Source: an uncultured Clostridia bacterium
GTDB lineage: Bacteria > Bacillota > Clostridia > Oscillospirales > Acutalibacteraceae
Direction of reading: 5' to 3'
DNA length: 59,890 bases
Assembly: GCA_944380675.1 (NCBI GenBank)
Contig: CALWIH010000004.1
Location: forward strand, 1-59,890
A program made the position numbers and the translations under genes. Under the pieces are notes generated by a model. It made no database searches. It saw only the letters and a list, made by a program, of their open reading frames with translations, and had not been told where the DNA came from. Shown in pieces: positions 1 through 8,351 of the stretch. Positions within the stretch are counted from its first letter, which is position 1; each line of letters begins with the position of its first letter.

Positions 1-65
1 TATGAAGTTGTGAAAGCGCCGATTTATCAAGGGTTTTGCCAGGGCACCCAACATTCTACGAAGTA
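1..65. other. Sequence replacing the tRNA-Leu 3' half
   Basis: No gene is recognised. On the minus strand the first bases form a small perfect hairpin, TCTAC-TTC-GTAGA, immediately after the tRNA anticodon loop. The rest shows no tRNA T-arm consensus (GGTTCGA). It may be the end of an inserted element or a deletion junction; only 65 bases are visible. Confidence 0.3.
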
Positions 66-106
66 GATTTTGAGTCCGTCACGTCTGCCAATTCCATCAC
101 ACCGGC
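66..106 (-). pseudogene. 5' half of a tRNA-Leu (CAA anticodon), truncated
   Basis: Read on the minus strand from 106, the sequence begins GCCGGTG and continues through a leucine-tRNA-like D arm (AATTGGCAGAC) to an anticodon loop CTCAAAA, with anticodon CAA. The 5' anticodon-stem strand is ACGGA, so a TCCGT partner is expected, but after TC the sequence becomes TACTTCGTAGA and no T arm or 3' acceptor strand follows in positions 1-65. A tRNA-type promoter lies directly upstream. The gene therefore looks cut in the anticodon stem, as happens when an integrative element recombines there. An intron, or a 3' half beyond the window edge, cannot be excluded. Confidence 0.65.
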
Positions 107-120
107 GCGATAACAGGACT

Positions 121-149
121 ATTATATCCGATTGGCGCAAAAATTGCAA
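121..149 (-). promoter_or_regulatory. Promoter of the truncated tRNA-Leu
   Basis: On the minus strand TTGCAA (149-144), a 17-base spacer and a perfect TATAAT (126-121) lie 15 bases before the tRNA 5' end. The spacing and consensus match a strong housekeeping sigma-factor promoter, so the broken tRNA is probably still transcribed. Confidence 0.75.
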
Positions 150-171: not shown

Positions 172-579
172 TCAGGCCGTTTCGGCGCGGTCGGGGGAGG
201 AGGCGCGCTGGAGGCGCTGCTCGGCGGGGACGACACAGTTTTCGTAGTTCTGGATCTTGTAGTTGAGGCGGTCGAGCGACTCCTGCATCATGCGCATCCG
301 CTCAATGAGCTGCTCGCGCTGCTCGATGAGAATCGCCTTGCGGGCGGGAATCGTCGCGTCCCCCTGCTGGAACAGGGCGACGTACTCGATGAGCGCCTCG
401 ATCTGCACGCCGGCCTGACGGAAGCACTTCATCATCGCGACCCAGCCGCACGATTCCTCCGTGTAGTCGCGCACGCCGCTTTTGCTGCGCGGGACGGGCG
501 GAATCAGGCCGATTCGCTCATAGTAGCGCAGCGTGTCGGGGGAAATCTCATATTTCTTGCTGACCTCGGCGATTGTCAT
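172..579 (-). CDS. MerR-family transcriptional regulator
   Basis: A protein of 135 aa. The N-terminus MTIAEVSKKYEISPDTLRYYERIGL is a classical MerR winged helix-turn-helix (residues 1 to about 70). It is followed by a long dimerisation helix (about 75-120, rich in Q, E, R and M) and a short polar tail. The ATG at 579 is chosen because GGAGG lies about 10 bases upstream and the MerR domain starts there; the frame is open further upstream without homology. The pattern resembles the AdhR/NmlR stress-response subgroup, but effector residues are not clear; Cys residues at about 44, 52 and 116 could sense thiol stress. No target gene is adjacent, since its neighbours are the tRNA fragment and the glgP terminator. 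Confidence 0.88.
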   Translation of the reverse strand: MTIAEVSKKYEISPDTLRYYERIGLIPPVPRSKSGVRDYTEESCGWVAMMKCFRQAGVQIEALIEYVALFQQGDATIPARKAILIEQREQLIERMRMMQESLDRLNYKIQNYENCVVPAEQRLQRASSPDRAETA

Positions 580-695: not shown

Positions 696-3038
696 TTATT
701 CGGCGGAAATGTGCCAGATTTCGTCCGCGTACTGGGCGATCGTCCGGTCGCTCGAAAACTGGCCCGCGTTCGCGGCGTTCAGGAGGCATTTGCGGGCGAA
801 GGCGTCCTTGTCGGCGTAGTCGCGGTTCGCGCGCAGGCGCGCCTCGCAGTACGGCAGGAAGTCGAGCAGCAGGAAATAGTGGTCGGGCTGATGCCAGCTC
901 GCCCCCTTGAGCAGAGCGTTGTACAGCTCGCGGAACATCCCGCTGCCGCCGTCGTCGAATGTGCCGTCGACGAGCGTATCGACCACGCGCTTGATGCGCG
1001 GCTCGCTCTCGTACAGTTTGCGCGGATCGTATGTCTTCTTCGCCGCGTTGATCTCCTCGACCGTCGCGCCGAAGATGTAGTTGTTCTCCCTGCCCGCGCG
1101 GTCGACGATCTCGATGTTGGCTCCGTCGAGCGTGCCGAGCGTCACCGCGCCGTTGAGCATGAACTTCATGTTGGACGTGCCGCTCGCCTCCGTGCCGGCC
1201 GTGGAGATCTGCTCCGAAACATCGGCCGCCGGGATGAGCTTCTCCGCGTAGGACACGTTGTAGTCCTGCACGAACAGCACCTGCATCTTCCGGTTGACGG
1301 CGTTGTCCCCGTTGACGAGTTTTGCCACCTCATTGATGAACTTGATGACGCCCTTCGCGCGGTAATAGCCGGGCGCGGCCTTCGCGCCGAACAGGAAGAC
1401 GGTCGGCTGGAAGTCCCTGATGCTGCCCTCCTTGAGGCCGAAGTAGATGTCGAGAATCGAGAACGCGTTGAGCAGCTGGCGCTTGTACTCGTGCAGGCGC
1501 TTGATCTGCACGTCAAAGAGAAAATCGGTATGCAGGCCGAAGCCCTCGTGCTTCCAGACATACGCCGCGAGCTGGTTTTTCTTCTCCTGCTTGATGGCGC
1601 GGAACTGGCGCAGCGAATTGACGTCGTTCGCGTACTTCTCAAGCCCCTTGAGCTGCGTGAGATCCGTCAGCCAGCCCTTGCCCACGCGGTCGGACGCGAA
1701 GGCGGCGAGCTCCGGATTGCACAGGCCGAGCCAGCGGCGCTGGGTGACGCCGTTCGTCTTGTTGTTGAAGCGCTCGGGGTAGAGGCGGTACCACTCCGGC
1801 AGCGCGTCGTGCTTGATGATCTCCGTGTGGATCTGCGCCACGCCGTTCGTCGAGTGGGAGGCGTAGATCGCGAGGCGGGCCATGTGGATGCGCCCGTCGC
1901 TGATGATGTGGTAGATCTTCTGCTCGTCCCCGCGGATGCCCTTCGCGTCAAGCTCGCGGCGCAGGCGATTCTGCAGCATGACGACGTACGGGTACACCTC
2001 CGGGATCACCGAGAGGAACAGGCGGACGTCCCATTTTTCCAGCGCCTCGGCCATGATGGTGTGGTTCGTGTACGCAAAGGTCTTCTGCGCGGCGGCAAAC
2101 GCCTCGTCGAACGAAAGCCCATACGTCCCGCAGAGGATGCGCAGCAGCTCCGGAATCGCGACGACGGGATGCGTGTCGTTGAGCTGGACGGCGTACTCGT
2201 CGGCAAAGCGCGAGAAATCCTCGCCGTGCCGCGCCGTATAGCGGTGCACGAGCGTCTGCATCGTGGCGCTCGAAAAGAAATACTGCTGCTTGAGGCGCAG
2301 CCGCTTGCCCTCGTCCGTGTCGTCGTTCGGATAGAGGACGGCGGTGATCATCTCCGCGCGGTTTTTCTCCTGCACGGCCTCGTCATACTTCTGGTCGTTG
2401 AAGGCGTAGAAATCAAAGCCGCGCACCGCCTCCGCCTGCCACAGGCGCAGCGTGTTGACGCACTTCCCGCCGTATCCGATGACCGGCATATCGTACGGGA
2501 CGGCCAGCACCTCCTGATCGGCGAAGACGATCTTCACGGCCTCCTTCTCGCGCCGGACGCTCCACGGGTCGCCGAAGCGCGTCCAGTCGTCCGGGCGCTC
2601 GCACTGGAAGCCGTTGTCGAAATACTGCTGGAACAGGCCGTACCGGTAGCGCAGGCCGAAGCCGTCGAGGGGGAGGGAGTGCGTCGCGGCGGAATCGAGG
2701 AAGCACGCCGCGAGACGGCCGAGGCCGCCGTTGCCGAGGGCGTCGTCCTCAATCTGCTCAAAGACAGAGGGATCGATCCCGTTCTCTCTGAGATAGCTTC
2801 CGCACTCGTCCAGCAGGCCGAGGTTGAACAGGTTGCTGCCGATCAGCCGCCCCATGAGGAACTCGGCGGAGAGGTAGCACGCCCGCTTCTGGCCCTCCTT
2901 TTCCTTCCAGACGGGGGCGAGCTCGCGCATCGCGGCATGGGAAACGGCATTGTACAGCTCCTTCGCGGTGGCATCCTTCGGGGAGGAGACGCCCTCCTCC
3001 TGCAGGTAACGGGCAATATCATCCGTAAAACGGCTCAT
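696..3038 (-). CDS. glgP: Glycogen/maltodextrin phosphorylase
   Basis: A protein of 780 aa, near the usual 750-850 for this family. It removes glucose as glucose-1-phosphate from the non-reducing ends of alpha-1,4-glucans, using pyridoxal phosphate, in the cytoplasm. The PLP-binding signature EASGTSNMKFMLNGAVTLGT is intact, with the lysine near residue 625. Other family blocks (GNGGLGRLAACFLDS near 90-105, KTFAYTNHTIMAEALE near 330, NKTNGVTQRRWL near 430) are also present. The ATG at 3038 follows AGGAGG at normal spacing. It is the last gene of the LacI-malQ-glgP operon, 15 bases after malQ. MalQ rearranges short chains into substrates long enough for this enzyme. Confidence 0.97.
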   Translation of the reverse strand: MSRFTDDIARYLQEEGVSSPKDATAKELYNAVSHAAMRELAPVWKEKEGQKRACYLSAEFLMGRLIGSNLFNLGLLDECGSYLRENGIDPSVFEQIEDDALGNGGLGRLAACFLDSAATHSLPLDGFGLRYRYGLFQQYFDNGFQCERPDDWTRFGDPWSVRREKEAVKIVFADQEVLAVPYDMPVIGYGGKCVNTLRLWQAEAVRGFDFYAFNDQKYDEAVQEKNRAEMITAVLYPNDDTDEGKRLRLKQQYFFSSATMQTLVHRYTARHGEDFSRFADEYAVQLNDTHPVVAIPELLRILCGTYGLSFDEAFAAAQKTFAYTNHTIMAEALEKWDVRLFLSVIPEVYPYVVMLQNRLRRELDAKGIRGDEQKIYHIISDGRIHMARLAIYASHSTNGVAQIHTEIIKHDALPEWYRLYPERFNNKTNGVTQRRWLGLCNPELAAFASDRVGKGWLTDLTQLKGLEKYANDVNSLRQFRAIKQEKKNQLAAYVWKHEGFGLHTDFLFDVQIKRLHEYKRQLLNAFSILDIYFGLKEGSIRDFQPTVFLFGAKAAPGYYRAKGVIKFINEVAKLVNGDNAVNRKMQVLFVQDYNVSYAEKLIPAADVSEQISTAGTEASGTSNMKFMLNGAVTLGTLDGANIEIVDRAGRENNYIFGATVEEINAAKKTYDPRKLYESEPRIKRVVDTLVDGTFDDGGSGMFRELYNALLKGASWHQPDHYFLLLDFLPYCEARLRANRDYADKDAFARKCLLNAANAGQFSSDRTIAQYADEIWHISAE

Positions 3039-3053
3039 GAGTGGTTCCTCCTG

Positions 3054-4583
3054 TCAATCCTTTTTTGTCCGGCTGTCTGCTTCGCGGGCCGCGCGTCCGT
3101 AGAGGGACGCCAGCTCCTTCATCCTTGCCGCAAGCTCCGCGGTGCAAAGGCCGGGGGAGACGCGCCAGCGCCAGTTCCGGCCGAGTGTGGACGGCGTGTT
3201 CACGCGCGCCTCGCTGCCGAGGCACAGAAAGTCCTGCAGCGGCGCGATGGCCAGCGACGCGACGCTCATGTACGCGGCGCGCACAAAATCCCAGCTTTCC
3301 CCGGCGGAGCGGCGGATATGCAGATACCGTCTGGCAAAGCGTACGTCGGCCTTCGGCGCCGTATGCGTCCAGCCGATCATCGTGTCGTTGTCGTGCGTGC
3401 CGGTGTAGACGACGCAGTTCGCGTTGTAGTTGTGCGGCAGATAGTCGCTCTCCTCGCGGGAATCGAAGGCGAACTGCAGCACCTTCATGCCGGGCGCGCC
3501 GACCTTTTTGCGCAGGCGGTGGACGTCGGGCGTGAGGTAGCCGAGATCCTCGAGAATCCATTTCGTGTCCCCGAGCGCCGACTGCACGGCCTCAAAGAAC
3601 GCGAGCCCCGGCCCCTTGCGCCATTCACCGTGCTCCGCCGTCTTGTCCGCGGCGGGGATAGCGTAGTAGCCGACGAGACCGCGGAAGTGGTCGATGCGCA
3701 CGACGTCGTACAGCCTCGCCGTCGCGGCCATGCGGCGCTTCCACCAGGCGAAGCCTGTTTTCTCCTGGTAGTCCCAGCGGTAGAGCGGGTTGCCCCAGAG
3801 CTGTCCCGTGGCGGCGAAGGCGTCCGGCGGGCAGCCCGCCACGTCGATCGGGCGGCAGTCCTCGTCGAGGTAAAAGACCTCCGGCTCCGCCCAGGCGTCG
3901 GCGCTGTCCATCGCGGCGTAGATCGGAATGTCGCCGATGAGCAGGATCCCCTGCTCCTTTGCGTACGCGCGCAGGCGTTCCCACTGCTCGAAGAACTTGA
4001 ACTGGCAGAACTTCCAGAACGCGATGTCCTCCGCAAGCGGCTCGAGCGCTTCGGCGAGGGCGTCCGGCTCCCGGCGGCGCAGCGCCTGCGGCCACTCGAG
4101 CCACGACTTGCCGCCGAAATGCATCTTGAGCGCCATGTACCGCGCGTAATTCTCGAGCCAGTCCGCGTTGCCCCCGCAGAACGCCTCATACGCCGCCGTC
4201 CCCGCGTGCTTGCTGCGAGAAAAGGCCAGCTTCAGAATGGGGAAGCGCTTCTCATAGAGACCGGCGTAGTCGATGTCGTTCTCGTCCTCGCCCCATTCGA
4301 CGGCGGCAAGCTCCTCCTCCTCGAGCAGCCCCTCCTCCCGGAGGAAGTCGAGGTCGATGAAATACGGGTTCCCGGCGAAGGCGGAGAAGCTCTGGTACGG
4401 GCTGTCGCCGTAGCTCGTCGGGCCGAGAGGGAGCACCTGCCAGTAGGCGTGCCCCGCCTCCCTGAGGAAATCGATGAACTCGTACGCCGCCCTGCCGAGC
4501 GTGCCGATGCCGTACGGGGAGGGGAGGCTGAACACAGGCATCAGGACGCCGGCGCTGCGGGGAAACTGCTTTTGCTTTTTCAT
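3054..4583 (-). CDS. malQ: 4-alpha-glucanotransferase (amylomaltase)
   Basis: A protein of 509 aa of GH77. It transfers alpha-1,4-glucan segments between maltodextrins, releasing glucose and making chains that GlgP can use. The catalytic blocks are visible: VRIDHFRGLVGYYAIPA (nucleophile Asp near 296), ILEDLG (Glu acid/base near 343) and YTGTHDNDT (Asp near 398). The ATG at 4583 is preferred over an upstream in-frame GTG at 4592, because AAGGAG lies 8 bases before the ATG and would overlap the GTG. It begins 5 bases after the regulator's stop, so the two are probably translationally linked. Confidence 0.95.
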   Translation of the reverse strand: MKKQKQFPRSAGVLMPVFSLPSPYGIGTLGRAAYEFIDFLREAGHAYWQVLPLGPTSYGDSPYQSFSAFAGNPYFIDLDFLREEGLLEEEELAAVEWGEDENDIDYAGLYEKRFPILKLAFSRSKHAGTAAYEAFCGGNADWLENYARYMALKMHFGGKSWLEWPQALRRREPDALAEALEPLAEDIAFWKFCQFKFFEQWERLRAYAKEQGILLIGDIPIYAAMDSADAWAEPEVFYLDEDCRPIDVAGCPPDAFAATGQLWGNPLYRWDYQEKTGFAWWKRRMAATARLYDVVRIDHFRGLVGYYAIPAADKTAEHGEWRKGPGLAFFEAVQSALGDTKWILEDLGYLTPDVHRLRKKVGAPGMKVLQFAFDSREESDYLPHNYNANCVVYTGTHDNDTMIGWTHTAPKADVRFARRYLHIRRSAGESWDFVRAAYMSVASLAIAPLQDFLCLGSEARVNTPSTLGRNWRWRVSPGLCTAELAARMKELASLYGRAAREADSRTKKD

Positions 4584-7073: not shown

Positions 7074-7852
7074 AGCAGCGGCCCTCCTATGAATTGATGC
7101 CAGAGCGTGATGACGAGGCCCACGCCCATCGCGATGCAGAACGTCACGAGCAGGGCGTCGAGCATCCGCACGGCCCCGGCGATGTAGTCCTCGTCGGCGA
7201 TGTCGCGGATAGCCGTCGTGAAGGCCACGCCCGGCACCAGCGGGATGATGGAGCCGATGATGATCTCGCCGAGATGGTGGCCGAGCCCGCTCTGGTACAT
7301 GAGAATGCCGAACAGCGTCACGAGCGCGCCGCCCGTGATGTTCGCCGCGATCTTCGAAAGTCTTCCGCGCACAATCAGAAGAAGATACAGATACAAAAGA
7401 ATTCCCGACGCGAAGGCGACGAGGCTGTCGACGGGATCGCCGCCGAACAGGAAGCAGAAGCAGCCGCTGCCGACGCCGGAGGCGAGGATCTGGTGCAGCT
7501 TCGGCTTCGGCGGCATATCGCGGATTTCGAGCAGCCGCCTGTGCGCCTCCTGCGGCGTGTGCAGGCCCTCGACGATCTCGCGCGAGAGCTGATTGACCGC
7601 CGTTACGCGGTCGAGCCGTGCCGCGCTCAGCGGGATGTGGCGCACGCGCGCGAAGTCCTGCTCCGTCTCGCTGCCCGCCGTGAGGAAGATGCCGCTGCTC
7701 AGCACAAAGGCGTCGCTCGACTCGACGCCGTACGCCTTCGCGATCCGCTCGATCGTCTCCTCGACGCGGAAAATCTCCGCGCCGCTCGCGAGGAGGATGT
7801 CCCCGGCAAGCGAGGCGGCGTCGAGCGCCTCGCGCTTATCCCGCGCTTCCAT
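7070..7852 (-). CDS. ThrE-like transporter, N-terminal half (YjjP type)
   Basis: A protein of 260 aa. A soluble N-terminal region (about 1-115, ALDAASLAGDILLASGAEIFRVEETIERIAKAYG) characteristic of this family precedes about five membrane helices, with the signature IIGSIIPLVPGVAFTTAIRDI near 205-225. ATG 7852 is chosen because GGAGGCG lies about 7 bases before it and homology begins there. It overlaps the Nudix gene upstream by 17 bases and the second half of the transporter by 4. Confidence 0.86.
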   Translation of the reverse strand: MEARDKREALDAASLAGDILLASGAEIFRVEETIERIAKAYGVESSDAFVLSSGIFLTAGSETEQDFARVRHIPLSAARLDRVTAVNQLSREIVEGLHTPQEAHRRLLEIRDMPPKPKLHQILASGVGSGCFCFLFGGDPVDSLVAFASGILLYLYLLLIVRGRLSKIAANITGGALVTLFGILMYQSGLGHHLGEIIIGSIIPLVPGVAFTTAIRDIADEDYIAGAVRMLDALLVTFCIAMGVGLVITLWHQFIGGPLL

Positions 7853-8351
7853 CCGGCTCGCCTCCGTTTCCGGCATAGTCCGCGAGGGAGAGCGGGACGC
7901 CGTCGAGCGCGGCCTCGCGGAGAGCGTCCCCCTGATAGACGAGCTTGAGCGAGAAGTACGGCCTGTCAAGCTGGATCAGGCGGAGGAAAATGCGGTCGCC
8001 CTCCCAGGAGGGCAGCTCCGGGACCTTCTCCTTCGGCACCCAGGCGAGCTCGCCCTCGTCGCAGGGGTGCTCCTCGCCCGTGAACCGGTCGCAGGTGAAC
8101 AGATGCATATATTCCGTCTCCCAGAGGTCGGAGACGAAGGTGACGAGGCCCCGGCAGCGCCAGGAGAGCATCGTGTAGCCCGTCTCCTCGCGCACCTCGC
8201 GCACGGCGCACTCCTCGGGGGTTTCGTCCGGCTCGAGTCCGCCGCCCACGCCGATCCATTTCCCCTTGTTCGGGTCAACCTTTTTCCTGACGCGGTGCAG
8301 CATCAGATACGCGCCGTCCCGCTCGAGATAGCACAGCGTCGTGAGTCTCAC
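7836..8351 (-). CDS. Nudix hydrolase, MutT-like
   Basis: A protein of 171 aa. An intact Nudix box (G-x5-E-x7-REVREETGY) lies at residues 37-59, following WIGVGGGLEPDE, which is typical of 8-oxo-dGTP-type diphosphatases of Firmicutes. It probably hydrolyses a damaged or surplus nucleoside diphosphate derivative; the substrate cannot be fixed from sequence. The GTG start at 8351 follows GGGGGG at 7 bases and overlaps the IMPase stop by 4 bases. The phosphatase-pyrophosphatase fusion further along the operon would fit the same nucleotide-cleaning theme. Confidence 0.9.
   Translation of the reverse strand: MRLTTLCYLERDGAYLMLHRVRKKVDPNKGKWIGVGGGLEPDETPEECAVREVREETGYTMLSWRCRGLVTFVSDLWETEYMHLFTCDRFTGEEHPCDEGELAWVPKEKVPELPSWEGDRIFLRLIQLDRPYFSLKLVYQGDALREAALDGVPLSLADYAGNGGEPDGSAG

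Follow-up and report, generated by a model that had tools for sequence, protein, structure and literature searches.

The window, the whole stretch of DNA analysed here, is the entire contig C4, 59,890 bases long, of a 2.7-Mb genome in 188 contigs that is 92.9% complete (G000). At its left end lie a promoter, the 5′ part of a gene for the leucine (UUG) tRNA, tRNA-Leu(CAA), and 65 further bases, with two protein-coding frames on the host side (Table 1). The tRNA sequence was compared with intact tRNA-Leu(CAA) genes of relatives, in which 41–43 bp were matched, with up to 100% identity. A first-pass annotation, made from the letters alone, had described 41 bases of good tRNA-Leu(CAA) that stop just past the anticodon loop, with no 3′ half in the remaining 65 bases, and both observations hold. 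Past GGACTCAAAATC (position 66), the window is without the 3′ strand of the anticodon stem, the T arm and the acceptor, and ARAGORN called no tRNA in it. The promoter had been described as a perfect consensus, which is true of the -10 box; over both boxes, it agrees with the consensus at 10 of 12 bases. Three promoter-like sites of at least 9/12 occur in bases 1–700 of the window, where 0.2 would be expected, and the tRNA-Leu promoter scores highest among them.

Table 1. Positions of the promoter, the cut tRNA gene, the element end and the flanking genes in the window
Feature	Position	Strand	Remarks
Host tRNA-Leu promoter, TTGCAA-17-TATAAT	121..149	-	-35 TTGCAA at 149-144, 17-bp spacer, -10 TATAAT at 126-121; 14 nt ahead of tRNA base 1
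Host tRNA-Leu(CAA), 5′ part	66..106	-	Base 1 at 106; sequence normal down to 66
Anticodon loop CTCAAAA	68-74	-	Inside the core
Recombination core ACTCAAAATC	66..75	-	Limit of identity when seven junctions are aligned; complete elements have a copy at each end
Apparent outer end of an integrated element	1..65	-	First 65 bp of the leader; in relatives, the leader runs from the core for about 150 bp to a complete tRNA-Leu(CAA)
Host-flank gene, frame	172..579	-	Presumably a MerR-type regulator; 99% in G005
Host-flank gene, frame	696..3053	-	Presumably glycogen phosphorylase; homologous DNA in 6/6 genomes of the genus

A second genome of the same genus (G005) has the same junction, with 99% identity over 160 bp; its contig extends 61 bp further and then ends. 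The comparisons with relatives given below support the view that the 65 bp past the break belong to one end of an integrated element. The first-pass annotation suggested that the window may begin exactly at such an end; the start in fact lies 65 bp inside the element. Its other proposal, a scar left by imprecise excision, is not needed to explain the junction.

Elsewhere in the window's genome, no complete tRNA-Leu(CAA) occurs among 33 tRNA matches; the leucine tRNAs among them are Leu(UAA), two Leu(CAG) and Leu(GAG). The two tRNA-Leu(CAG) genes stand 1180 bp apart (G000:C3:2383-2466 and 3563-3646). Neither the 3′ half of the host tRNA-Leu(CAA) nor, at E 1e-60, the integrase of the element family was found in this genome. 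A lone tRNA 3′ end with T arm, acceptor and CCA (G000:C185:16021-16052; L044 1501-1532) was rejected as the missing half since its acceptor misfits tRNA-Leu(CAA); it may belong to the end of a different element that targets tRNA genes. Within the genus, the loci of G002, G003 and G004 gave no orthologous empty site. In G002 and G003 the same flanking genes are present with no adjoining tRNA-Leu, and in G004 the phosphorylase gene stands alone, with neither the MerR gene nor a tRNA. The contig of G001 begins at the corresponding locus.

The element end and complete elements in relatives

The window's junction aligns with those of G005 and of loci L025, L094, L131, L132 and L152, with 72–75 of 75 bases in agreement inward from the core. 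Identity among these junctions begins at the core, while the host sides of the seven differ, except that of G005, which is like the window's. In L094, L131, L132 and L152 (record titles Onthomonas avicola, Faecivicinus avistercoris, Oscillospiraceae MAG and Fusicatenibacter merdavium), the window's end stands behind a truncated tRNA-Leu half that is preceded by unrelated host-side DNA, and 75, 72, 74 and 74 of 75 window-end bases are matched, respectively. The same boundary is seen in 10 groups of element ends with at least three members: mean identity is 25–52% in the 60 bp before the host half and 87–96% in the first 60 bp of the element. G003, from the window's genus, has window bases 1–75 at 97% identity about 150 bp from a complete tRNA-Leu(CAA), with no host tRNA half adjoining. 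L025 has an element end like the window's (7482-8332) whose neighbour, instead of a tRNA half, is DNA containing the same GGAGGTCC arm-like repeats; two element ends may meet here in a tandem or circular junction, or the site may be a different one.

Locus L094, which has the window's exact end, continues into a complete tRNA-Leu(CAA) and a 501-aa tyrosine integrase with Phage_integrase and SAM-like domains. The idea that a tyrosine-integrase element had landed at the anticodon site of the tRNA is borne out by this locus and by the core, which corresponds to the anticodon loop. In relatives, ARAGORN places the complete tRNA-Leu(CAA) about 150 bp inside the element, in the same orientation as the host half. 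This replacement tRNA, carried whole by such elements, is a feature that the first-pass annotation lacked.

To find further loci of this kind, a collection of species-representative genomes was searched with a paired exact pattern: a tRNA-Leu 5′ part, 150–179 bp, and a second tRNA-Leu 5′ part. At least 120 stretches match, of which 80 were readable, and the first tRNA is truncated in 77 of these 80. The other three, L098, L116 and L124, are ordinary tandem tRNAs; they were rejected as half-plus-complete loci and excluded from the promoter and integrase counts. A complete tRNA with its own 5′ part follows the half in most of the 77 loci, and several contigs end earlier. The leader between core and tRNA is 137–161 bp long; the element tRNA thus stands at a near-fixed position.

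Four elements could be closed: G072 (25,069 bp), G077 (19,844 bp), G068 (33,389 bp) and G078 (22,704 bp), the sizes of the last two being differences between core positions. In all four, a second copy of the core at the far end is followed by the host 3′ half. The missing half had been predicted beside a repeat of GGACTCAAAATC. It was found so placed in the four complete relatives, at the far end of elements of 19.8–33.4 kb, with the correction that the shared core, at 9–11 bp in the window and relatives, is slightly shorter. When the flanks of G072 and G077 are rejoined, ARAGORN calls a complete tRNA-Leu(CAA). In G068 and G078, the two host halves have a complementary GCCGGAA/TTCCGGC acceptor, and the element's own acceptor is GCCGGTG. 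The same test found no far-end 3′ half in the 6.5 to 100 kb read at G075, G066, G064, G060, G076, G394, G071, G063 and G276.

A subset of the frames of each complete element was scanned with Pfam (6/15 in G077, 11/18 in G078, 10/27 in G068 and 12/21 in G072). No phage structural family was found among these scanned frames with Pfam. Relaxase genes are present in three of the four elements: G077 has a MobA-type relaxase with MobC, while G078 and G068 have a Mob_Pre relaxase with ParB behind the integrase, and type I restriction-modification. No relaxase was found among the 12 of 21 frames scanned in G072. Read from relaxase and integrase genes alone, the complete elements are best taken as putative integrative mobilizable elements, and the elements as a whole appear to be non-phage and partly mobilizable. 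The integrase of G077 is split across two frames, and therefore that copy may be inactive. The cargo of G077 includes a 999-aa protein (L210 6105-9101) with a match to RNA-dependent RNA polymerase (PF05183) at E 6.5e-11, above the cut-off. The cargo of G072 (L204 13787-19378, L205 973-2658) includes RES and HipA proteins, a radical-SAM protein and two large proteins with no match in Pfam or PADLOC; it is perhaps an undescribed cassette.

Proposed expression of the replacement tRNA

We consider it likely, at a probability of about 0.87, that an integrase element has split the host tRNA-Leu(CAA), leaves this gene unrestored and supplies a complete tRNA-Leu(CAA) behind the host promoter. A tyrosine-integrase element would recombine into the anticodon loop of the host gene at the 9–11 bp core, whereupon the host promoter and 5′ half would stay on one side and the 3′ half would come to lie at the far side. 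The element end would not rebuild the split gene; the complete tRNA-Leu(CAA) would lie about 150 bp inside it, in the same orientation. Transcription from the host promoter would then pass the dead 5′ half and the leader, and normal processing would free a working tRNA. The junctions, the complete element tRNA, the integrase, the far-end 3′ half, the rejoined empty sites and serial insertions are all seen in relatives. The window's own element is visible for 65 bp, its interior being missing from the assembly, and presumably has the inner parts of its relatives, namely the replacement tRNA and the integrase.

Promoter-like sites were sought before intact genes, host halves and element tRNAs with the sigma-70 consensus, with repeated leaders merged (95 to 82). 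A site of at least 9/12 within 90 nt was present for 15 of 19 intact tRNA-Leu(CAA) genes, 49 of 81 host halves and 3 of 82 element tRNAs; after removal of similar leaders, the last count was 1 of 42. Host sides below 9/12 numbered 32 of 81, and that of G072 has no site at all. Toward the tRNA, no far end of the four complete elements or of L025 scores above 7/12.

A weak or unusual promoter in the leader might nevertheless drive the element tRNA, in which case capture of the host promoter would be incidental. This is unlikely, though it deserves to be taken seriously: whole leaders contain a site of at least 9/12 in 12 of 82 cases (15%, compared with 9.1% when shuffled), a -10-like box with at most one mismatch lies within 60 nt of the tRNA in 21 of 82 leaders versus 63 of 81 host sides, and a single promoter type was scanned. 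Stronger signals distinguish the two sides. Sites of at least 10/12 are present in 1 of 82 leaders (shuffled 1.2%) versus 33 of 81 host sides (shuffled 1.0%), and an exact TATAAT within 60 nt of the tRNA in none of 82 leaders versus 35 of 81 host sides; the last 90 nt of the leaders reach 9/12 in only the three cases given above. Host halves are thus often preceded by promoter-like sites, whereas leaders have about as many as chance would give, and so the host promoter probably drives the replacement tRNA.

Terminator-like sites fit this arrangement. They are present in 4 of 82 leaders (shuffled 4.1) and behind 33 of 68 element tRNAs (shuffled 4.3), the 14 of 82 leaders with no measurable tRNA end having been left out of the latter count. 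The simplest reading would be one transcription unit comprising the host promoter, the dead 5′ half, the leader, the replacement tRNA and the element's terminator.

A second alternative is that the element was lost and its end alone kept, as a scar or relic. The integrase missing from the window's assembly would agree with this, and so would a part of the loci in relatives. Two Pfam-confirmed integrases served as seeds to count integrases in the 51 of 91 loci with at least 1500 nt behind the element tRNA; the 40 loci with less were left out, 8 of which show a piece of an integrase. The family's tyrosine integrase is present in 31 of the 51 long-enough loci, convergent on the tRNA in 31 of 31; three have only a large serine recombinase, and 17 have neither, as decayed elements would. 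The first-pass annotation had named conservation of the truncated layout across distant relatives in the absence of any element as evidence against its proposal; the layout is indeed conserved, with the recombinase counts just given. An integrase-like frame at L086 was rejected as a chance frame, having no Pfam match and an opposite gene with a Pfam domain. Among the long-enough loci with Alphaproteobacteria titles (L082, L086, L089, L110, L112 and L122), the family integrase is near the tRNA in 0 of 6, and a recombinase of neither kind was found; these six are perhaps decayed elements that left their foreign tRNA behind, or they rely on a different recombinase. For the window, a relic is decidedly improbable, given that the contig simply ends inside the element end, that repeated ends break assemblies, and that G005, with the same junction, ends nearby too.

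In L025 (5476-7185), L081, L142, L143 and L154, the 3′ end of the element tRNA is immediately followed by a large serine recombinase gene, whose product could be the true integrase. This is very improbable with the tyrosine integrase in 31 of 51 loci, and we reject it on the gene order of G068 (the genome of L143), which has both enzymes. There the serine recombinase gene (oriented 650-2384) separates the tRNA from the tyrosine integrase, an order that suggests a second, nested element behind the tRNA.

tRNA genes are classic landing sites of mobile DNA, and an island usually restores the gene that it enters. Under such anticodon-class integration, the element would supply the missing 3′ half and restore the host tRNA at the junction. 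The kind of target, the integrase and the anticodon-loop core are like those of classical islands, and a 5/5 anticodon-stem pairing would be possible at 11 of 82 junctions. Against this, neither a T arm nor an acceptor comes after the half in the window or in the 77 truncated scan loci, most of which show a complete tRNA with its own 5′ part next. Acceptor pairing was counted after leaving out 17 of 82 leaders: it is 7/7 in 65 of 65 testable element tRNAs and in 42 of 65 combinations of the host 5′ part with the element 3′ part, by which measure the element tRNA is predicted to be a better tRNA than a host/element chimera. The element end thus does not rebuild the split tRNA at the examined junctions, and we regard classical restoration as extremely improbable. 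An intron in the anticodon loop is ruled out: what comes next is a complete tRNA that has its own 5′ part, and in four elements a distance of 20–33 kb separates the host 3′ half from the break. A wrong joining of the 65 bp in assembly is scarcely credible: the break does lie 65 bp from a contig end in a fragmented assembly, and the contig of G005 ends nearby too, but a one-off misassembly is unlikely because the junction recurs in this second genome of the genus with 99% identity, four named genomes have the same end after the same core, and contig ends at this place fit a repeated element end.

Spread of the layout and related systems

By record title, carriers among the readable scan loci are mostly Clostridia or close to them. 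Other titles, with those of metagenome bins taken at face value, are Sphingobium, Tardiphaga, Chelativorans, Hyphomicrobiales, Hyphomonadaceae, Rickettsiales, Polaromonas, Desulfovibrio and Odoribacter. In 394 genomes sampled from the window's order, the single pattern was present in 258 and the paired pattern in 14, spanning 13 genera, with the first tRNA truncated in all 14 paired loci.

Copy number was assessed in 20 carrier genomes with the single exact pattern, which matched twice, as a pair, in 13, three times in two, and once in five. Of the two with three matches, G065 has a stack and G061 a pair plus a second copy of the element. With the exception of G061, no tRNA-Leu 5′ part was found outside the array in the carriers (19/20) by this exact pattern, which would miss variants. 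From these match counts, and within the limits of the pattern, the tRNA-Leu(CAA) gene looks single-copy in carriers. Seven loci (5 of the 77 from the scan and 2 of the 14 from the order) have the order half, half, complete, in which a later element has landed in the tRNA of an earlier one. Each insertion removes one landing site and provides another.

A broader interpretation stands, in our estimate, at even odds. The elements would be widespread and would capture promoters: their promoterless tRNA-Leu would be on only after insertion into the anticodon loop of the host's single tRNA-Leu(CAA) gene, behind the host promoter, and silent elsewhere, and the new tRNA would become the host's only copy, an addiction module and the next landing site. 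If so, its role as an addiction module would block loss of the element end, and its role as a fresh landing site would let insertions stack. Loci with the tRNA and the element end and no integrase would then be relics whose foreign tRNA the host has permanently adopted.

The closest known system is the tRNA-dependent lysogeny of actinobacteriophages, in which a tyrosine integrase acts on an attB in a host tRNA gene with a core of 8–17 bp, the tRNA is not rebuilt, the phage encodes the same isotype, and the need for the phage tRNA was proven by experiment (PMC10865867). Phage Gaia of that set targets tRNA-Leu-CAA with an 8-bp core (PMC10865867). The elements described here are alike in having their attB in a host tRNA gene that is not rebuilt, with a core of 9–11 bp in the window and relatives, and in having a tyrosine integrase at the attachment site in 31 of 51 relative loci, including L094, though none was found in the window's genome at E 1e-60. 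They are alike also in their tRNA, since relatives carry a complete tRNA-Leu(CAA) by ARAGORN; the window's element ends too early for it to be seen. Unlike temperate actinobacteriophages, as far as that account describes them, they have no phage structural family in the scanned proteins, and three of four complete elements have a relaxase. In phage Fionnbharth, the tRNA gene brings its own strong promoter and overlaps with a coding gene (PMC10865867), whereas here the tRNA is near-fixed behind a host promoter, with a signal of its own near chance. The authors leave the reach beyond actinobacteriophages open and name prophage Lj965 as a likely case (PMC10865867).

Three other systems share parts of the layout. 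Sinorhizobium prophages similar to Mesorhizobium phage Lo5R7ANS inactivated tRNA-Leu(UAG) in two strains and carry a substitute tRNA (PMC11476347); they differ in being prophages and in the isoacceptor, and the word "promoter" is absent from the text of that report as available (PMC11476347). In ICEMh1 and ICEPmu1 of Pasteurellaceae, an 11-bp direct repeat corresponds to the anticodon loop, and a further, disrupted tRNA-leu copy lies upstream of a full-length copy (PMC6861422). ICEMh1 shares the same tRNA and core region with the elements here (PMC6861422), and its disrupted and full-length tRNA-leu could be the layout found here, a likeness drawn from the description. That description, in the part available, has one functional tRNA left via the conserved T-loop side and does not include a replacement gene (PMC6861422). 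In Islander islands, a tyrosine integrase splits the tRNA gene, as here; those islands restore the split gene (PMC4383910), whereas the elements described here leave a dead fragment and bring an entire gene. No such tRNA replacement in mobilizable elements and no promoter capture was described in the titles and abstracts that searches of the open-licence literature listed. Judged from their sequences, the elements appear to differ from the known systems in being apparently non-phage and partly mobilizable, in their spread, in the near-fixed position of the tRNA and in its missing promoter signal.

Elements mostly with Clostridia titles, and some with Alphaproteobacteria titles, thus leave a gene dead and supply a new one that is apparently wired to the host promoter. 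This would explain truncated halves beside complete tRNA genes, stacked halves, and how elements could become indispensable. A phage phenomenon described in 2024 would be extended to apparently non-phage elements, and the testable idea of integration-dependent tRNA expression is raised. Annotators may take a truncated tRNA gene at the end of a contig as a possible sign of a mobile element.

Phage and plasmid sequences were searched as well. The paired pattern gave no match in viral contigs. Six relatives of the integrase occur in viral contigs at 24–47% identity, and ARAGORN finds no tRNA-Leu at their loci. When the element end and tRNA were compared with phage and plasmid records, only the tRNA part matched, among the matches listed, and the first 66 bases of the window had no plasmid match. 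In eight records (six phage-type, two plasmid), a tRNA-Leu 5′ part was recognised in two, both of them complete and with no upstream core, and in none of the other six. Oenococcus phages have an annotated tRNA-Leu at attL.
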